A stretch of DNA of 64,000 bases. Source: Opitutus terrae PB90-1 (GTDB lineage: Bacteria > Verrucomicrobiota > Verrucomicrobiia > Opitutales > Opitutaceae). The position numbers and the translations under genes were made by a program. The stretch covers positions 1,984,001 to 2,048,000 of the forward strand of contig NC_010571.1 of NCBI RefSeq assembly GCF_000019965.1, written 5' to 3'. The notes under the pieces were generated by a model. The model saw only the letters and a list, made by a program, of their open reading frames with translations. It made no database searches and was not told the DNA's origin. Below, in pieces: positions 6,720-41,462 of the stretch (position 1 is its first letter; every line of letters starts with the position of its first letter).

Positions 6720-7194
6720 ACAGGAGAGCGCAGAGGAAGCAGAGACATAGGATGCTTGGTCTACGAATCCGCGCCTGGAAGGATGAGCCATGAGATCCCG
6801 TCGGTCAGCTTGCTGACGTTGAAATTGATCAGCAGGCCAAGAGGGATGTTCAGTAGCTTCATATAGCTTAAAAGCTGTGCCTTGTGCATCGGAAGAATCT
6901 TCTCAACGGATTTGGCTTCCGCCAAGACACAGTCTTCGACCAACACGTCGAACCGTAACGGTTCGTCTTTCGTGAAACCCTTGTAGGCGATCCGGACGGC
7001 TTTCTGGTTTGTCGCCGTAAGGCGACGTAGGTCGAGCTCGCGCAGCAGACACCATTCATAAATCGATTCGATCAAGCCTGCCCCTTTGTCTCGATGCACT
7101 TCAATCGCCGCGCCGATTATTGTTTCCGTGCGCTTCGACGCCTTGGGAAAGAGCGGGTGCATTGCCTTTCTCTGCTTCCTCTGCGGCCTCCTGT
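6720..7194. repeat. Inverted-repeat-bounded cassette carrying the GxxExxY gene
   Basis: The left arm 6720-6745 (begins ACAGGAGAGCGCAGAGG) and the right arm 7169-7194 (ends GCGGCCTCCTGT) are reverse complements at 24 of 26 positions. Together they enclose a 402-bp gene and separate gspE from gspF. The enclosed DNA is visibly more AT-rich than the flanking secretion genes. I see no transposase and no convincing target-site duplication. A transcript from gspD through gspF would fold the arms into a long stem around the gene. Confidence 0.75.
6761..7162 (-). CDS. GxxExxY protein (PDDEXK-like family)
   Basis: A 133-residue protein from ATG at 7162, matching the typical size of the GxxExxY family. 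The signature is visible as KGAGLIESIYEWCL (Gly27, Gly29, Glu32, Tyr35). Downstream residues fit a PDDEXK nuclease-like core: Asp72 in FDVLVED, Glu82-x-Lys84 in AEAKSVE, and Gln96 in HKAQLLSYMKL. The family is known from many environmental genomes, often in multiple copies, with no established function. The gene interrupts a secretion operon, has lower GC than its neighbours and lies inside a near-perfect inverted repeat, all suggesting later arrival. The open frame extends upstream of this ATG but has no family similarity there. Confidence 0.85.
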   Translation of the reverse strand: MHPLFPKASKRTETIIGAAIEVHRDKGAGLIESIYEWCLLRELDLRRLTATNQKAVRIAYKGFTKDEPLRFDVLVEDCVLAEAKSVEKILPMHKAQLLSYMKLLNIPLGLLINFNVSKLTDGISWLILPGADS

Positions 7195-7209: not shown

Positions 7210-8970
7210 CTATTTCTCGGCGACCGTGACGACGCGCAGGACCTCGTCGAGCGTGGTGTAGCCGGCCTTCACCTTTTCCCAGCCGCTCTGGCCAAGCGTG
7301 CGCATACCGTGACGGCGCGCGCATTCGTCCAGCGTACGGGTGCTTTCGCGCTTCAACACCAGCTCGTGCATCTCGTCGTTGAGCCGGAAAATCTCGAACA
7401 ACCCGATCCGACCGCGGTAGCCGGTGCCGCGGCAACGGTCACAGCCGACCGGCGCCTTGAGCGCCTCGACCGTGTCGGCCTCCTCGGCTGGACAGCCGAG
7501 GATCGAGAGGCTTTCACGCAGCTTGATCTTGTTTGCGGGCTCGTCGCGTGAGCACACGGGGCAAAGCCGGCGGACGAGTCGTTGTGCGATCACCAGCTCG
7601 ATAGCTGACGCAACGAGGAACGGCTCGATGCCCATGTCGACGAGCCGCGTGATCGCGCCGGGCGCGTCGTTCGTGTGCAGTGTCGAGAAAACCAAGTGGC
7701 CCGTGAGCGAAGCGCGAATCGCGATCTCGGCGGTGTCCTTGTCGCGGATTTCGCCGACCATGATCACGTCGGGGTCCTGACGGAGCACGTGGCGGAGCGC
7801 ATCGGCGAAGGTCAGCCCGATCTCCGGCCGGACCTGCATCTGGTTCACGCCGGGCACCTCATACTCGATCGGGTCTTCGATCGTGATGATCCGCAGGTCG
7901 GTGGAGTTGATCTTCCGGAGAAACGCGTTGAGCGAAGTGCTCTTGCCGGAGCCGGTGGGACCGGTGACGAGGATGATCCCGTGCGGGTAATCGAGCACCT
8001 GCGAGATCTGCGCCTGCTCCTCGGCGCTCATCCCCAGTCGGTCCATCGAGTAGGCCTCCTTCTTCTGGTTGAGCAGACGGAGCGAGACGGACTCGGCGTA
8101 GATGGTCGGAATCGTGGAGACGCGGATGTCGAGGACGGTGTTCTCGGCGCGGAAATTGATGCGGCCATCCTGGGGCAGCCGGCGCTCGGAAATGTTGAGC
8201 CGCGCCATGATCTTCAGGCGCGAGATGATCGCGTCCTGAAACCGCAGCAGGTTCTCCGGCACGGGCACCGGCACGAGCAACCCATCGACGCGGTAGCGGA
8301 TCCGGAGCTGGCCTTCCTGTGGCTCGAAGTGAATGTCGGTCGCCTGGTCCTCGACCGCCTGCGCAATCACGTCGCTGACGAAGCGCACCACCGCGGCCTC
8401 CTCGTCGACGACTTCCTCGGCCTGTTGCACGACCTCGGGCGCGACGTAGCCGTCGTCGCCGTCCTCGAGCGAGCCGGAGCCCACGCCGTAGTTCTCGATG
8501 ATCAGCTGGCGGACTCGCTCGGGCACGGCGAGGTGCCACACCGGACGGCGCGGCGTGAACGTGCGCAGCCAGTCGACCATGACGTCGTCCGGCAGCCACG
8601 AGGTGGCGAGGTGAAGGGGATGCTGAGAGTCCAGAGCTGAGAGCTGAGAGCCAGAATCATCGAGGCTCGGGCTCTCAGCTCTGGACTCTGGACTCTCGGC
8701 ACCGAACTTGATCGGGATGATCTGAAAGTCGTGCACCAGCCGCGCGGGCAGCAATCCGCGGGAGGCGGGGTCGGCCTCGAGATTGCTGGCGACATCGAGT
8801 CCGGAGGCGGACGCCAGCGCGGAGAGCGCCGCGGGTTCCGGCAGGTTCAACGCGCCCGCCAGAACAGTCAGCCGTTTGTCGCGCGGCGCCTCGGCGACGG
8901 CCTGGCGTTGGGATTCGCTGAGCTGGGCGGTCAGCGAGGAGGGCAGGAGATCCGTGGACAGCGCGGGCAT
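7210..8970 (-). CDS. gspE: Type II secretion / type IV pilus assembly ATPase GspE
   Basis: A 586-residue ATPase with an N-terminal MshEN-like domain, a central N2 domain and a C-terminal RecA-like motor. Walker A is GPTGSGKST (about residue 336); the Asp and His boxes (TIEDPIEYEVPGVNQ, FSTLHTNDAPGAITRL) and Walker B (DPDVIMVGEIRD) are intact. A C-x2-C ... C-x2-C zinc motif (CPVC, CDRC) lies at about 466-495. It powers pseudopilus assembly with GspF and is only 30 bp downstream of gspD. Odd point: residues about 93-115 are a Ser/Glu-rich stretch coded by an 18-bp inverted repeat that looks inserted in frame. Confidence 0.93.
   Translation of the reverse strand: MPALSTDLLPSSLTAQLSESQRQAVAEAPRDKRLTVLAGALNLPEPAALSALASASGLDVASNLEADPASRGLLPARLVHDFQIIPIKFGAESPESRAESPSLDDSGSQLSALDSQHPLHLATSWLPDDVMVDWLRTFTPRRPVWHLAVPERVRQLIIENYGVGSGSLEDGDDGYVAPEVVQQAEEVVDEEAAVVRFVSDVIAQAVEDQATDIHFEPQEGQLRIRYRVDGLLVPVPVPENLLRFQDAIISRLKIMARLNISERRLPQDGRINFRAENTVLDIRVSTIPTIYAESVSLRLLNQKKEAYSMDRLGMSAEEQAQISQVLDYPHGIILVTGPTGSGKSTSLNAFLRKINSTDLRIITIEDPIEYEVPGVNQMQVRPEIGLTFADALRHVLRQDPDVIMVGEIRDKDTAEIAIRASLTGHLVFSTLHTNDAPGAITRLVDMGIEPFLVASAIELVIAQRLVRRLCPVCSRDEPANKIKLRESLSILGCPAEEADTVEALKAPVGCDRCRGTGYRGRIGLFEIFRLNDEMHELVLKRESTRTLDECARRHGMRTLGQSGWEKVKAGYTTLDEVLRVVTVAEK
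8625..8692. repeat. Palindromic repeat inserted in frame within gspE
   Basis: AGAGTCCAGAGCTGAGAG at 8626-8643 is an exact reverse complement of 8672-8689, with further GAGAG/GGACTC iterations around both arms. On the gspE strand it codes for a low-complexity linker (ESPESRAESP ... SQLSALDSQ) between the N-terminal domain and the motor. The purine/pyrimidine-biased sequence is unlike the surrounding gene. Confidence 0.7.
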
Positions 8971-19826: not shown

Positions 19827-19887
19827 CGCAGCATGAAAACGTATGGTGGGACGTCAGTGCGCCGCCTAGCGCCGGCGGCGTGGAGGC

Positions 19888-19977
19888 ATTTTCACGTATT
19901 ACGTGAAAATACCGGAAACCAGACACGTCTGGGCGATGGAGAGGCCGAAGGGCAATTTCACGTAATACGTGAAATTG
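19888..19977. repeat. Pair of related palindromes between mutM and the DUF255 gene
   Basis: Palindrome 1 (19888-19910) is ATTTTCACGTA-T-TACGTGAAAAT; palindrome 2 (19953-19977) is an exact odd-length palindrome with core TTTCACGTA-A-TACGTGAAA. Their centres are 67 bp apart, and a small hairpin CAGAC-AC-GTCTG lies between. They may be REP-like repeats, a double hairpin in the mRNA, or paired operators. Confidence 0.65.
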
Positions 19978-20040
19978 GCTCGGCACGGGCAGACGGGCGG
20001 GGGTGCTTTGCAAGTTCGGGGTTTTGCGCGAGGGTGGCCG

Positions 20041-29517: not shown

Positions 29518-30765
29518 ATGAGACGCCTGGTTTACGAATTGTTCGAGTCGCTGCGGATCGCGTTCACGCAGATCTGGGCGAACAAGATGCGCTCGGCGCT
29601 CACCGCGCTCGGCGTGATCATTGGCATCGTGGCTGTGACGCTGATGGGCACGGCCATCAAGGGCATCGACGTCGGCGTCGATCGCAGCTTTTCCGGGTTC
29701 GGCGACGACGTGCTGTATGTGACGAAGTGGCCGTGGCACGAAATCGACGACTGGTGGAACTACCGCAACCGCCGGCCAATCCGGTTTGAATATGCGCGTC
29801 AGATCAACGACTGGATTGCGACGCAGCCGAACAGCGCGATCCGGCTCGCCGTCCCCGTGGCCAACCGCGGCACGAACGTGATCCGCGGCGAATACCGGGT
29901 GAACAACATCTGGACGATGGGCACGACGGCGGACTACGTGCGCATCGCCCGGTCGGAGATGAAGGAAGGGCGGTTCTTCAGCGAGTTCGAGGCGCAGGCC
30001 GGTTCGAACGTGGCGATCATCGGCTACGACGTGGCGGATGCGTTGTTCGCCAACGAGTCCGCGCTTGGCCAGACCGTGCGGATTCGCGATCAGAATTTCC
30101 GCGTGATCGGGGTGGCGGCGCGGCAGGGAAGTTTCCTCGGGCTGTTCAGCTGGGACTCGATGCTGGCCATGCCGCTCACGACGTATCGGCGTTATTTCCG
30201 GCTCAATGATGACAACGAGATCCGCGTGCAGGTCGACGCGACGCGGATGGAAGCGGCGCGCGATGAGCTCCGCGGGCTGATGCGCCGGCTGCGGCAGCTC
30301 GGGCCGGAGCAGCGCGACGATTTCGAGCTCAACGAGCAGGGCACGATCCGGAAGCAGCTCGATCCGATTAAAAACGGCATCGCGATGGCGGGGCTGTTCA
30401 TCACCGGGCTGGCGCTTTTCGTGGGCGCGATCGGGATCATGAACATCACCTACGTGAGCGTGAAGGAGCGCACGAAGGAGATCGGTACACGCAAGGCGCT
30501 GGGCGCCCGCCGCCGGACGATCCTGCTGCAGTTTCTCATCGAGGCGACGTCGATCTGCTTCGTCGGTGGCACGGCCGGACTGTTGCTCGCCTACGGAATG
30601 TCCGTGCTCGTGGGGGCGGTCGCGCCCTCGTTCCCGCTGGTGTTCTCGGCCGGCTTGGTGGTGACCGGTATCACGATCTCGGTGCTCACGGGCGTCTTCA
30701 GTGGCTTTGCGCCCGCCTGGCAGGCTAGCAAACTCGATCCGGTGGAGGCGCTGCGCTACGAATGA
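29518..30765 (+). CDS. ABC transporter permease (MacB/FtsX type), first copy
   Basis: A 415-residue permease with one N-terminal membrane helix (MRSALTALGVIIGIVAVTLMG), a large periplasmic MacB_PCD domain (about 50-280) and three C-terminal helices (MAGLFITGLALFVGAIGIMNITYVSVKERTKEIGTRKALGA; two more after FLIEATSICF). The VKERTKEIGTRKALGA coupling motif contacts the ATPase. Its stop overlaps the next start (ATGA). It should form a heterodimer with the second permease, since the two have equal size and order. Confidence 0.9.
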   Translation: MRRLVYELFESLRIAFTQIWANKMRSALTALGVIIGIVAVTLMGTAIKGIDVGVDRSFSGFGDDVLYVTKWPWHEIDDWWNYRNRRPIRFEYARQINDWIATQPNSAIRLAVPVANRGTNVIRGEYRVNNIWTMGTTADYVRIARSEMKEGRFFSEFEAQAGSNVAIIGYDVADALFANESALGQTVRIRDQNFRVIGVAARQGSFLGLFSWDSMLAMPLTTYRRYFRLNDDNEIRVQVDATRMEAARDELRGLMRRLRQLGPEQRDDFELNEQGTIRKQLDPIKNGIAMAGLFITGLALFVGAIGIMNITYVSVKERTKEIGTRKALGARRRTILLQFLIEATSICFVGGTAGLLLAYGMSVLVGAVAPSFPLVFSAGLVVTGITISVLTGVFSGFAPAWQASKLDPVEALRYE

Positions 30766-31988
30766 TTTTCGCTGAGATCTTCAAACTCGCTCTCTCGTCG
30801 TTGGCCGCGAACAAGCTGCGGTCCGGGCTCACCATGCTCGGCATCGCGGTGGGCGTGTTCTCGGTCATCGGCGTGATGACCGTGATCACGGGGCTGCGCA
30901 CCAACATCGAGAACGGATTGAACGTGCTCGGCGCGAACAGCTTTCAGTTCACAAAATATCCCGCGATCAACTTCAGCGATCCGCACCAGCGTTTCGCCAA
31001 TCGCCGCGACATCGTTTACGCGCAGGCGGCCCGCTTCAAGGACCTGATGGGCGACGACGCCACCGTGAGCCTGTCGACGTTTCGCCGCGGCCGGCGGGTG
31101 ACCTATGGCGAACGGCGTACAAACCCGAACGTCGGGCTCGCCGGTGGCGACGAGAATCTGATCGTCAGTCGGAACTTCGATATCGCGACCGGTCGGAACG
31201 TCGGGCCGGACGACGTGGAGTTTGGTCGCGCGGTGGTCGTGCTGGGCGCCGATATTCTGAATAAACTTTTCTCCGGCGAGGATCCGTTGGGCCGGGTGGT
31301 GCGGATCGACGGGCAGAACTACACCGTCATCGGCACCCTGGCGCCGAAAGGCACGTCGTTCGGCCAGAGCCAGGACAATGTGGCGTTGGTGCCGATCACT
31401 GCTTTTCTCGAGGCCTACGGCCGGAACCGCCGCTCGATCGGCATCAATGTGCAGGCGCCCAGCCAGGCGGCGCTGGCGGCGACGCAGGACGCGGCGATCG
31501 GCGTGATGCGATTGGTCCGCGGGCTGAAACCCGAGGATCCGAACGACTTTGAGGTGTTTTCCAACGAGACCCTGATTGAGTCTTTCAACAAGGTGGCGAG
31601 CATCGTGGCCACGGGCGCCTTCGTGATCAGCGCGATCGCGCTGCTGGCGTCGGGCGTGGGCGTGATGAACATCATGCTGGTCAGCGTAACGGAGCGCACG
31701 AAGGAGATTGGCATTCGCAAGAGCATCGGGGCCAAGCAGCACAATATCCTGAGCCAGTTCCTGCTCGAGGCGGTGACGCTGTCGATGGTCGGGGGCCTGG
31801 CGGGAATTCTGGCCGGCGTGATCGGCGGCAACATCGCCGCGAAGCTGTTGAACGCGGTGTCCGTGTTCCCTTGGGGCTGGGCGATGATTGGGATGCTCGT
31901 CTGCTCCGCGATCGGCGTCGGCTTCGGTTTCTATCCCGCGTGGAAAGCGGCGCGGCTCGACCCGATCGAGGCGCTGAGATACGAATAA
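30762..31988 (+). CDS. ABC transporter permease (MacB/FtsX type), second copy
   Basis: A 408-residue paralogue of the preceding permease with the same one-plus-three helix layout: LRSGLTMLGIAVGVFSVIGVMTVIT at the N-terminus, a periplasmic domain, then ISAIALLASGVGVMNIMLVSVTERTKEIGIRKSIGAKQ. Both permeases end in LDPIEALRYE or LDPVEALRYE, which confirms their common origin. It is the last gene of the efflux operon. The left arm of the four-helix-bundle cassette starts 3 bp after its stop. Transported substrate unknown; macrolides, peptides and lipoproteins are options for this class. Confidence 0.9.
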   Translation: MIFAEIFKLALSSLAANKLRSGLTMLGIAVGVFSVIGVMTVITGLRTNIENGLNVLGANSFQFTKYPAINFSDPHQRFANRRDIVYAQAARFKDLMGDDATVSLSTFRRGRRVTYGERRTNPNVGLAGGDENLIVSRNFDIATGRNVGPDDVEFGRAVVVLGADILNKLFSGEDPLGRVVRIDGQNYTVIGTLAPKGTSFGQSQDNVALVPITAFLEAYGRNRRSIGINVQAPSQAALAATQDAAIGVMRLVRGLKPEDPNDFEVFSNETLIESFNKVASIVATGAFVISAIALLASGVGVMNIMLVSVTERTKEIGIRKSIGAKQHNILSQFLLEAVTLSMVGGLAGILAGVIGGNIAAKLLNAVSVFPWGWAMIGMLVCSAIGVGFGFYPAWKAARLDPIEALRYE

Positions 31989-31990
31989 GC

Positions 31991-32446
31991 GGATTTTCGA
32001 TTCTAGAATTTCGATTTTCGATTGGCCGTCGTTTCGACGTGGCCGTCAGCGGTATCCCTTCCGCCATGAACGAAAACGAAATGAAAGCGCGCACGAAGAG
32101 CTTTGCTCTTCGGATTCTGAAGCTGATCGATGCTCTCCCGGAAAAGCGGTCGGGCAGGATCATTGCGAATCAACTCGGTCGATCGGGAACCTCAGTCGGA
32201 GCCAATTACCGTGCTGTGTGTCGAGCTAGGTCGAGGGCCGACATGATCGCCAAGCTGGGGGTGGTTGAAGAAGAGGCCGATGAATCCGCCTTTTGGCTGG
32301 AGATGATCCCGGAGGCCAAGCTGATTCCGGCGGCGCAGACGGAGGCATTGCGTCAGGAAGCGTCGGAGCTCACGGCCATCATGGTCGCGTCGCGCAAGAC
32401 ACTTCTGACCCGCAATCCAAAATCGAAATTCGAGAATCGAAAATCC
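31991..32446. repeat. Inverted-repeat-bounded cassette carrying the four-helix-bundle gene
   Basis: Left arm 31991-32020 (begins GGATTTTCGATTCTAGAA) and right arm 32417-32446 (ends GAATCGAAAATCC) are complementary at 28 of 30 positions. They enclose the four-helix-bundle ORF; the right arm codes for its last residues (about NPKSKFENRK). The arms are AT-rich blocks in GC-rich DNA, placed between the efflux operon and a convergent gene. No transposase and no clear target duplication are seen. Confidence 0.78.
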
Positions 32447-32452
32447 GTCTAG
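32066..32452 (+). CDS. Four-helix-bundle protein (23S rRNA-intervening-sequence protein family)
   Basis: A 128-residue protein beginning MNENEMKARTKSFALRILKLIDALP. The family core is clear: SGTSVGANYRAVCRARSRADMIAKLGVVEEEADESAFWLEMI (about residues 40-81). This family was first seen as ORFs inside intervening sequences of 23S rRNA genes, but here it lies outside rRNA. Function is unknown; the basic/acidic bundle has been suggested to bind nucleic acid. The C-terminal tail RNPKSKFENRKSV is encoded by the right inverted-repeat arm. The stop TAG overlaps the stop of the convergent gene in CTAG. Base composition is lower in GC than neighbours. Confidence 0.88.
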   Translation: MNENEMKARTKSFALRILKLIDALPEKRSGRIIANQLGRSGTSVGANYRAVCRARSRADMIAKLGVVEEEADESAFWLEMIPEAKLIPAAQTEALRQEASELTAIMVASRKTLLTRNPKSKFENRKSV

Positions 32453-33681
32453 CCGCGGCGGATCTCGGAGCCTTGGAACCGGATCTGGATCCGGAAGACC
32501 TTCTTTACGCGGCAGGTGATCTGGCCGGTCTGCAGATCGAACTTTTCGGGAATCTCGATTCGATGAATGTCGACGACGGCGTGGTAGCCACGCTCGGAAA
32601 ACACGTCGATCAACATGGCCAGCGCCGTCGGATCCTCCAGGAGCGGTTCCTGCGTGTTGAACAAGGCCACGCCCGAAATCGAGTGGCGCAGCACGACCGG
32701 CATGATCTTCCGCGCCACAAAGCCGACGACCTGCGAGAAAAGTTCTGGCTGGCCAAACTCGTAGCTATCGAGCCGCTTCACCAGTTCCTGGCGCGAGTGG
32801 ACGATGATCTCGCTCGCCACCGGCAGAATCCGCAGCCGGTCGACCGTGCGCGGGTCGAGCTCGAGCGTGCTCTGGTATTCAAGCTCCTTGACGATGTTCT
32901 GCTCGACCTCGCCGATCGGGCCCTGCGCGTTGATGAAGTGGTAGTGGAAGATCTCCTTCAGTGACTGCAGCGCATCCCAAGTCTGCTCCTTGAAGACCCG
33001 GTAGCGCCGCTGCGCGAGCATCTCGTCGTGATCGGTCGGCCGGTCCTCCCAGAGCTCGCCGACGCCGGTGCGCTTCACCTCCTCGTTGTGTTCGATCGTC
33101 TGCCGGCCGCGCTTGAGCTGGCGCGCGATCGATTCCTTCTCGTCGACGAACAGTACCATGATGTGCACCGTCGGCTGCCGAAAATGAATGCTGAGCGGTG
33201 TGTTGAAGAACTCGCGCCGCAGCGCGTGCATCTTGTCGACCAGCATCTTCAAACACTCGACCTGCACGCGCGTCCGCGGAAAGCCGTCGAGGATCACGCC
33301 GTCGCGGTAGATCGGCTTCATCAGCTCGCGCAACAGCAGGCTGACCACCTCGCGATCGCCGACCATGTTGCCCGCATCCTTCAGTCGCCGCGCCTCCGGC
33401 GAGTCCAGCAGCGCGCTCATCACGATTGGGGGACAGGTGAGCCCGCGCGCTTTGGCGATGAATGCCGTGTTGGTGCCCTTACCCGCACCGGGCGCGCCGC
33501 CGAGCAGGAGGATCTCCTTGGGAAAGCGAAGGTTTTCGCGGCCGAACTCCGCCTCCAACGCTTCCCAGGCGGCGCCGAAGATCAGCTGCGCGTCCTTGAT
33601 CTCGAGATCGGTGATTTTGCCGGCGGTGGGGCTTGAGGCCGAGGCCTGCGCCGAAGGGGCAACATAGCGGGAGTTGGACAT
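32449..33681 (-). CDS. Adenylate-kinase-like nucleoside monophosphate kinase with C-terminal extension
   Basis: About 410 residues from ATG at 33681 (MSNSRYVAPSAQ). A 45-residue lead precedes the kinase P-loop GGAPGAGKGTNTAFIAKARG (about residue 60). YRDGVILDGFPRTRVQVECLKMLVD matches the adenylate-kinase signature DGFPR, and FVDEKESIARQLKRGR resembles the LID/NMP region. Canonical enzymes are about 215 residues; this one carries roughly 190 extra C-terminal residues (from about EIFHYHFINAQG) that I cannot assign. Substrate may be AMP or another nucleotide. It is convergent with the four-helix-bundle gene and divergent from the NtrC-type gene. Confidence 0.75.
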   Translation of the reverse strand: MSNSRYVAPSAQASASSPTAGKITDLEIKDAQLIFGAAWEALEAEFGRENLRFPKEILLLGGAPGAGKGTNTAFIAKARGLTCPPIVMSALLDSPEARRLKDAGNMVGDREVVSLLLRELMKPIYRDGVILDGFPRTRVQVECLKMLVDKMHALRREFFNTPLSIHFRQPTVHIMVLFVDEKESIARQLKRGRQTIEHNEEVKRTGVGELWEDRPTDHDEMLAQRRYRVFKEQTWDALQSLKEIFHYHFINAQGPIGEVEQNIVKELEYQSTLELDPRTVDRLRILPVASEIIVHSRQELVKRLDSYEFGQPELFSQVVGFVARKIMPVVLRHSISGVALFNTQEPLLEDPTALAMLIDVFSERGYHAVVDIHRIEIPEKFDLQTGQITCRVKKVFRIQIRFQGSEIRRG

Positions 33682-33974
33682 GAGAATCTGGAGGCGGCAG
33701 GGCTTAGACGCTTTGGGTCCGATACTCGACACAAGAATGACGCCGACGAGAGTAGGGGAACCTACTGAATGGACCATCGTGGCGGGCCCGGGTTTTTTCG
33801 CCTATTTCCCGGACGCATCCGACACGTCGCGAGCTCCGGCGTCGGCGGACCCGTGGAGCGCGCGGAAACTTCGCGTTCTGTGGGAGCGAGTTCCGTAAGG
33901 CGCGGGAGCGTCGGTCGCGGACGAGATCGCGCGTGAAGCTTTTGAACCGCGACAAACGCGGGAAATTCCCCGGC

Positions 33975-38746: not shown

Positions 38747-41305
<2,559 letters not shown>

Positions 41306-41462
41306 AGCGGAACGCGAGGCGAGGGAAGGAGAGGGCGCGGCGGCGACGGACATTGGCGGAGAAACTGTGCGAGCAGCGGTGGGCGGGCAAGCAACCGCAG
41401 CGACCGGCGACAGAATCTGGTGCGCGATGCGTAGTTGGGCGGCCGCGAGGAAGCGGACGAAC

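Follow-up and report, generated by a model that had tools for sequence, protein, structure and literature searches.

A heptad-armed four-helix-bundle gene in Opitutus terrae suggests that intervening sequences of rRNA are copies of a widespread, probably mobile element at one of its targets

Intervening sequences (IVSs) in rRNA have been known since about 1990. In Coxiella, the 28-bp terminal stem of the IVS is cut by RNase III, and the number of its tandem heptamers (GACAGAT) varies between strains by one heptamer (PMC4990558). For CPR bacteria, IVP ORFs have been described within insertions of both 16S and 23S rRNA (PMC11270868). A Xanthomonas relative of the encoded four-helix-bundle protein is a homopentameric toroid, and both the origin of rRNA IVSs and the role of their ORF have been called unclear (PMC4990558). 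The 23S IVS with its S23/IVP ORF, e.g., of Coxiella and Leptospira, is the described system with which the locus of the current study has most in common, i.e., a PF05635 ORF in an insertion of ~430-460 nt, a terminal inverted repeat (IR) of ~28-35 nt with tandem heptamers in the arm, and filled as well as empty alleles, both at the ABC/adk junction described here and in relatives. In contrast, the Opitutus element lies between protein genes and has heptads of the CGATTTT type.

The window, i.e., the whole 64-kb stretch of the O. terrae genome that was analysed, contains the following features at this locus.

31990..32447, plus strand: whole element from left arm through right arm, 458 nt, delimited by the IR boundaries
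31990..32024, plus strand: left arm, 35 nt, about five 7-nt units of the CGATTTT type
32413..32447, minus strand: right arm, with 33/35 positions matching the reverse complement of the left arm
32066..32452, plus strand: four-helix-bundle protein gene (TIGR02436 / PF05635), 128 aa
30762..31988, plus strand: flanking ABC transporter permease gene, whose stop ends at 31988 and abuts the left arm
32449..33777, minus strand: adenylate-kinase-like gene on the other side, convergent, given with the extent of the listed ORF and an uncertain start codon; its stop abuts the right arm

We take the gene at 30762-31988 to encode an ABC permease, based on sequence similarity among relatives and general knowledge, and the adenylate-kinase-like name was inferred from a GxPGAGKGT-type motif in the translation of 32449-33777. 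The two arms are 94% complementary over 35 nt and enclose 388 nt, each consists of tandem 7-nt units (4.6 copies), and the length of the element equals the median span of the family. It is the top-scoring long-range IR of the 64-kb window, in which the chance expectation for such an arm pair within 1 kb is ~5e-9 according to base composition. The left arm starts 1 nt past the permease stop codon; since this stop ends at 31988 and that of the adenylate-kinase-like gene begins at 32449, the arms fill the 460-nt gap between the two convergent stops almost to the base. The original prediction had placed a 30-bp IR around the gene, with the end of the protein encoded in the right arm, in a setting between two convergent genes far from rRNA. 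The repeat proved to be real and slightly longer, the last ~12 residues are indeed read from the right arm, and the setting was confirmed by the abutting stops and the lack of an rRNA match in the window; the tandem 7-nt structure of the arms had been missed. The Rfam search detected neither rRNA nor any other family anywhere in the 64-kb window, and no group I or group II intron ribozyme core matched at the gathering threshold. The element is therefore not filed as a 23S IVS, whose location inside an rRNA gene it lacks. In the RNA fold predicted for it, the two arms pair and close the structure (z -3.4).

The ORF at 32066-32452 scores 79 bits with TIGR02436 and 49.7 bits with PF05635. PF05635 is all that is encoded between the palindromes, where a Y1 HUH transposase is absent. 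The AF2 model of the protein (pLDDT 94.7) has its best PDB match in 2RLD; 2GSC is another match, and a weaker one is Avd of the DGRs (4DWL and 8UB7 among the Foldseek matches). The two solved relatives 2RLD and 2GSC contain five chains per entry, and to our knowledge no function has been assigned to either structure so far.

Comparison of the orthologous ABC-permease/adk-like junctions in 16 other genomes and in the same-genus genome G003 revealed that the gene is absent from all 17 of them. Their stop-to-stop gaps range from 6 to 502 nt, compared with 460 nt here, and at five junctions the two stop codons are merely 6-22 nt apart. The same 35-nt arms are kept in G003 around an unrelated non-coding interior of 202 nt, for which no resemblance to the four-helix-bundle gene or to another of the compared loci was detected, and in G066, a representative of another genus, the same arm is kept around a 12-nt loop without the gene. 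The persistence of gene-less arms in G003 and G066 implies that the arms at this junction are older than the gene or outlived it in some lineages, and that they need no protein there. The G003 interior (L088), which lies between arms homologous to those of the window, is GC-rich and contains recurring GGTCGCG / AAGGTGCG motifs. Junctions of other genera (L059, L062, and L086) harbor gene-less palindromes of unrelated 7-8-nt units in the same gap, which suggests that the ABC/adk gap is a hot spot or a tolerated site.

Filled and empty alleles are also found in cyanobacteria. On Nostocales plasmids, the flanks of filled and empty alleles are 97-98% identical, and the ends of the insertions fall at the IR. 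The Trichormus and Scytonema insertions differ from the empty plasmids (flanks ~98% and 97% identical) by 420 or 406 nt and show an additional 8-nt imperfect target repeat; the left arm of the Scytonema element is shorter than that of the Trichormus copy at one site by exactly two heptads. The elements of the plasmids pNsp_c and pC052_D are different and occupy different gaps of the same operon, and each plasmid provides the empty site for the other. In other comparisons, the element takes the place of a short stretch, i.e., of 32 nt in PCC 7003 versus 7002 (cas10/cmr3) and of 13 nt in Nostoc versus Calothrix (nrd). The target duplication varies by site and is an 8-nt imperfect repeat, 3 nt or lacking. 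MITEs and DDE transposons likewise have terminal IRs and filled and empty alleles, but the present elements contain no transposase, their target duplication is inconsistent and their ends vary between copies of one genome. Two individual copies are worth recording. In the type III-B CRISPR operon on the Picosynechococcus PCC 7003 plasmid, an element (L166) separates cas10 from cmr3, and it is absent from PCC 7002. Nostoc C052 plasmid pC052_E harbors a truncated copy (L251), of which the left arm and the 5' part of the gene are left and the remainder is deleted.

An rRNA-borne counterpart is present in Azospirillum lipoferum, where the AZO_p2 copy lies inside 23S rRNA (LSU_rRNA_bacteria, 2527 bits) and has arms (TCAGAGGACGGATGACAGAGGACGGAGGACAG) of the heptad type of IR. 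The AZO_p3 operon, whose flanks are 100% identical, has a 19-nt hairpin (GTGTGATCTTCGATCACGC) at the position of the element, which is presumably helix 45 of 23S rRNA; the 23S copy thus replaces a hairpin that is retained in the second rRNA operon of the strain. With the anatomy shared by the A. lipoferum and Coxiella IVSs, rRNA IVSs and non-rRNA elements are alike in all tested anatomical features except location.

The association of IR and gene extends across the PF05635 family. An IR above the 99% null was found at 55/73 PF05635 loci of the Opitutaceae; 55/79 GTDB-wide loci from many phyla (pseudo-gene null) and 25 of the 28 scorable loci of the protein's own clade (P0001 clade) also have the IR. 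PF05635 loci on viral contigs reached an IR score of at least 15 in 23 of 27 cases, and nine of ten plasmid copies scored at least 19 (the tenth, 14.5). Over the many phyla, the plasmids, and the viral contigs covered, such an IR accompanies ~70-90% of the PF05635 genes. The nulls for these scores were derived from pseudo-genes, because mismatched flank pairs are contaminated by shared heptad motifs, and a 268-ORF control was included in the Opitutaceae survey. The 138 scored elements had arms of 32 nt and spans of 458 nt in the median, and 7 was the best arm period in 126 of them, compared with 11% of shuffled arms. In the open-access literature, no earlier description of heptad-armed IRs around non-rRNA members was found, which does not prove priority.

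The single 5,957,605-bp contig of the O. terrae genome contains eight PF05635 genes, seven of which are bracketed by IRs of 26-36 nt. Each IR is distinct and built from 6-8-nt units (AGTTGAG, CGGTGAAG, TCGTTC, AAACGCC, TAGGCGA, and others); two of the seven (L001 and L006) score 11-13, i.e., below or near the 99% null, and were recognised mainly by their unit structure. Only ~3 other tandem-armed palindromes occur in 400 kb of this genome, and the association with the gene is therefore not background. A single conserved terminal sequence is ruled out by the differences between the arms of the eight copies. The original reading of the locus as an IVS-type element outside rRNA is accordingly supported by three lines of evidence, namely by empty counterparts at the 17 gene-less junctions, on Nostocales plasmids and in 23S rRNA, by an IR that is kept as a feature and not as a sequence around PF05635 genes of many phyla, and by a 23S copy with the same heptad-armed IR.

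Arm type and protein clade are correlated. Protein identity and arm similarity are associated with a Mantel rho of 0.25 (permutation maximum, 0.08), and the GANYRA clade, which includes the protein of the window, has GATTKYN heptads, compared with AGNNNTN in the NIAEG clade. The clade was predicted correctly from the arm alone in 116/127 leave-one-out trials (91/101 and 25/26 for the two clades) versus 81/127 (66/101 and 15/26) by base composition, a success that is partly helped by shared descent, because close relatives stay in the test. In 14 sets of orthologous loci, the pairing score of an element's own arms was 21.0, compared with 11.5 when arms of orthologs were crossed (P ~1e-16). Between orthologs, both arms have switched together from one whole heptad type to another. 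The gene itself is under purifying selection, with a dN/dS of 0.00-0.27 in 14 of 15 scorable gene pairs, the remaining pair having very few changes. The low dN/dS and the arm matching among orthologs indicate that the protein is maintained, that many copies have long been inherited vertically, and that the arms turn over in concert. Instead of selection, fold-back templated copying or repair could keep the arms concerted, and a hairpin would be needed either way.

Based on these data, we consider it probable that the stretch at 31990-32447 is a compact mobile element of the IVS kind whose protein reads its own heptads and whose hairpin moves. The proposed element would consist of one IVP/S23 gene between terminal IRs of 4-5 tandem 7-nt units, and its insertion would have been placed exactly between the two convergent stop codons. 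A homopentameric ring, as in the solved relatives, may bind its own element at the heptad array, at a ratio of roughly one heptad to each subunit, a model suggested by the five chains per solved entry, the homopentameric toroid and the arithmetic of a 35-nt arm (5 x 7). Pairing of the arms would turn the element into a long hairpin, be it of DNA at replication or of RNA upon transcription, and the complex of protein and hairpin would be what is protected and occasionally moved. Less certain is the route; movement may proceed via a DNA hairpin or single strand together with host functions, and not via reverse transcription. Entry would replace or abut a short stretch, sometimes a pre-existing hairpin, with no fixed target duplication. 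Within transcribed rRNA, the stem would be removed by RNase III, which would explain why rRNA tolerates the element.

A second type of gene in the window has a similar framework. The GxxExxY gene (TIGR04256, 129 bits) at 6761-7165 on the minus strand lies inside a tandem-armed IR (6720-6745/7169-7194), and an IR above the 99% null was detected at 23/30 GxxExxY loci (PF13366/TIGR04256; median span, 455). The arms comprise three units of ~YRCRRAK that are spaced 8-10 nt. The nuclease-like GxxExxY genes form parallel elements that are laid out in the same way but follow another arm grammar. Further repeats of the window are a gene-less heptad hairpin with a short loop (TGCTGAGAGTCCAGAGCTGAGAG...) at 8621-8701, which is located in frame inside the GspE-like CDS 7210-8970 (minus strand) in a linker of varying length among relatives, an insertion not being proved, and four ATTTTCG-type heptads of the type of the element's arms at 39470-39498, in frame in the CDS 38747-41353 (minus strand). 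Another recurrent palindrome family around TTTCACGTAATACGTGAAA, which is not based on tandem units, occurs at 19883-19981 and also at 200224 and 213226 of a joined 400-kb stretch (genome position 100001 on).

The element might alternatively be a passive passenger of Y1 (HUH, REP/RAYT-like) or GxxExxY PD-(D/E)XK enzymes that act in trans on its palindromic ends. Across genomes, its copy number rises with Y1 transposases (rho 0.49) and with GxxExxY genes (rho 0.63), so that a trans-acting enzyme may be involved, and the GxxExxY genes sit in similar tandem-armed palindromes. However, these correlations ignore phylogeny and genome size, include several incomplete genomes and may merely reflect repeat-permissive genomes. 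The GxxExxY arms have their own grammar, and two genomes with five copies each and no detected Y1 (G017 and G023) speak against a strict dependence on Y1. REP/REPIN sequences with their RAYT (Y1 HUH) resemble the element in the palindromic ends around a small gene and in the occurrence of gene-less derivatives, but here the gene encodes a four-helix bundle without an HUH motif and the ends are 7-nt arrays; moreover, REP/REPINs amount to hundreds of one sequence, whereas a genome has one to ~15 of the present elements, which are scattered and differ in arm type. The role of a mere passenger is regarded as unlikely.

The Avd protein of DGRs is known to bind both RNA and a reverse transcriptase. 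An RNA route would start from a transcribed hairpin that is cut by RNase III, reverse transcribed in trans and inserted, with the Avd-like protein recruiting the enzyme as in DGRs. This scenario could build on the fold and homology that the four-helix-bundle protein shares with Avd, on the paired arms of the predicted RNA fold and on the observation that rRNA copies leave as RNA (PMC4990558). Unlike in DGRs, the gene stands alone between its arms, and there is no match to the reverse transcriptase family PF00078 in the O. terrae genome despite its eight copies. G030 has 13 copies and no reverse transcriptase either, but the enzyme could have been lost since in the relatives, and copy number was uncorrelated with reverse transcriptases over 61 genomes (rho 0.04). 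The missing PF00078 match and the missing correlation disfavor reverse transcription, and we rate this route as quite improbable.

Where genes converge, the hairpin might also serve as a bidirectional terminator or stabilise mRNA, and the small gene would then be an incidental passenger. It occupies the gap between convergent stops here and in G003/G066, and several relatives have unrelated gene-less palindromes at the junction. However, other copies lie in operons, between genes of one direction (cas10/cmr3, the nrd locus, and a VirB10 operon), or inside 23S rRNA, some orthologous junctions measure merely 6-10 nt, and a gene under purifying selection whose clade is tracked by the arm type is hardly incidental; a terminator function as the whole explanation is very improbable. 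It is scarcely credible that the arms are ordinary short tandem repeats that a host gene merely attracts or tolerates, since, even though the repeat units of many bacterial genomes are most often 7 nt long (work summarised in PMC4679880), seven of eight family genes have such a palindrome against a background of ~3 per 400 kb, the 268-ORF control speaks against the same IR frequency around other genes, the arms form inverted, matched pairs that go with the clade, and insertion boundaries coincide with them. Heptameric repeats of cyanobacteria and other bacteria (TAACTGA; PMC4679880) share the 7-nt tandem units and the location in intergenic DNA, but they are direct arrays, mostly upstream of start codons, whereas the element has paired inverted arms around one gene family.

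With the mobile, heptad-reading element as the preferred reading, the expression "IVS outside rRNA" may have the direction wrong, i.e., the non-rRNA form may be general and rRNA one of its targets. The comparison suggests that rRNA genes are just one of the sites at which a widespread mobile element settles, and that ribosomal IVSs are its copies there. More tentatively, and at somewhat less than an even chance, these loci might represent a pan-bacterial class of transposase-less minimal elements with a small gene and arms of short tandem units read by their own protein, in which a five-fold ring would read about five heptads, 23S/16S IVSs would be the rRNA-targeted subset and GxxExxY elements a second, independent branch. 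The heptad-armed IR around nearly every gene of a common family and the exact empty alleles turn IVSs of unclear origin into a testable family of mobile elements. For PF05635 proteins, including those of the solved structures 2GSC and 2RLD, the predicted ligand is their own heptad arms, and the clade-specific heptad code makes this prediction falsifiable by simple binding assays.
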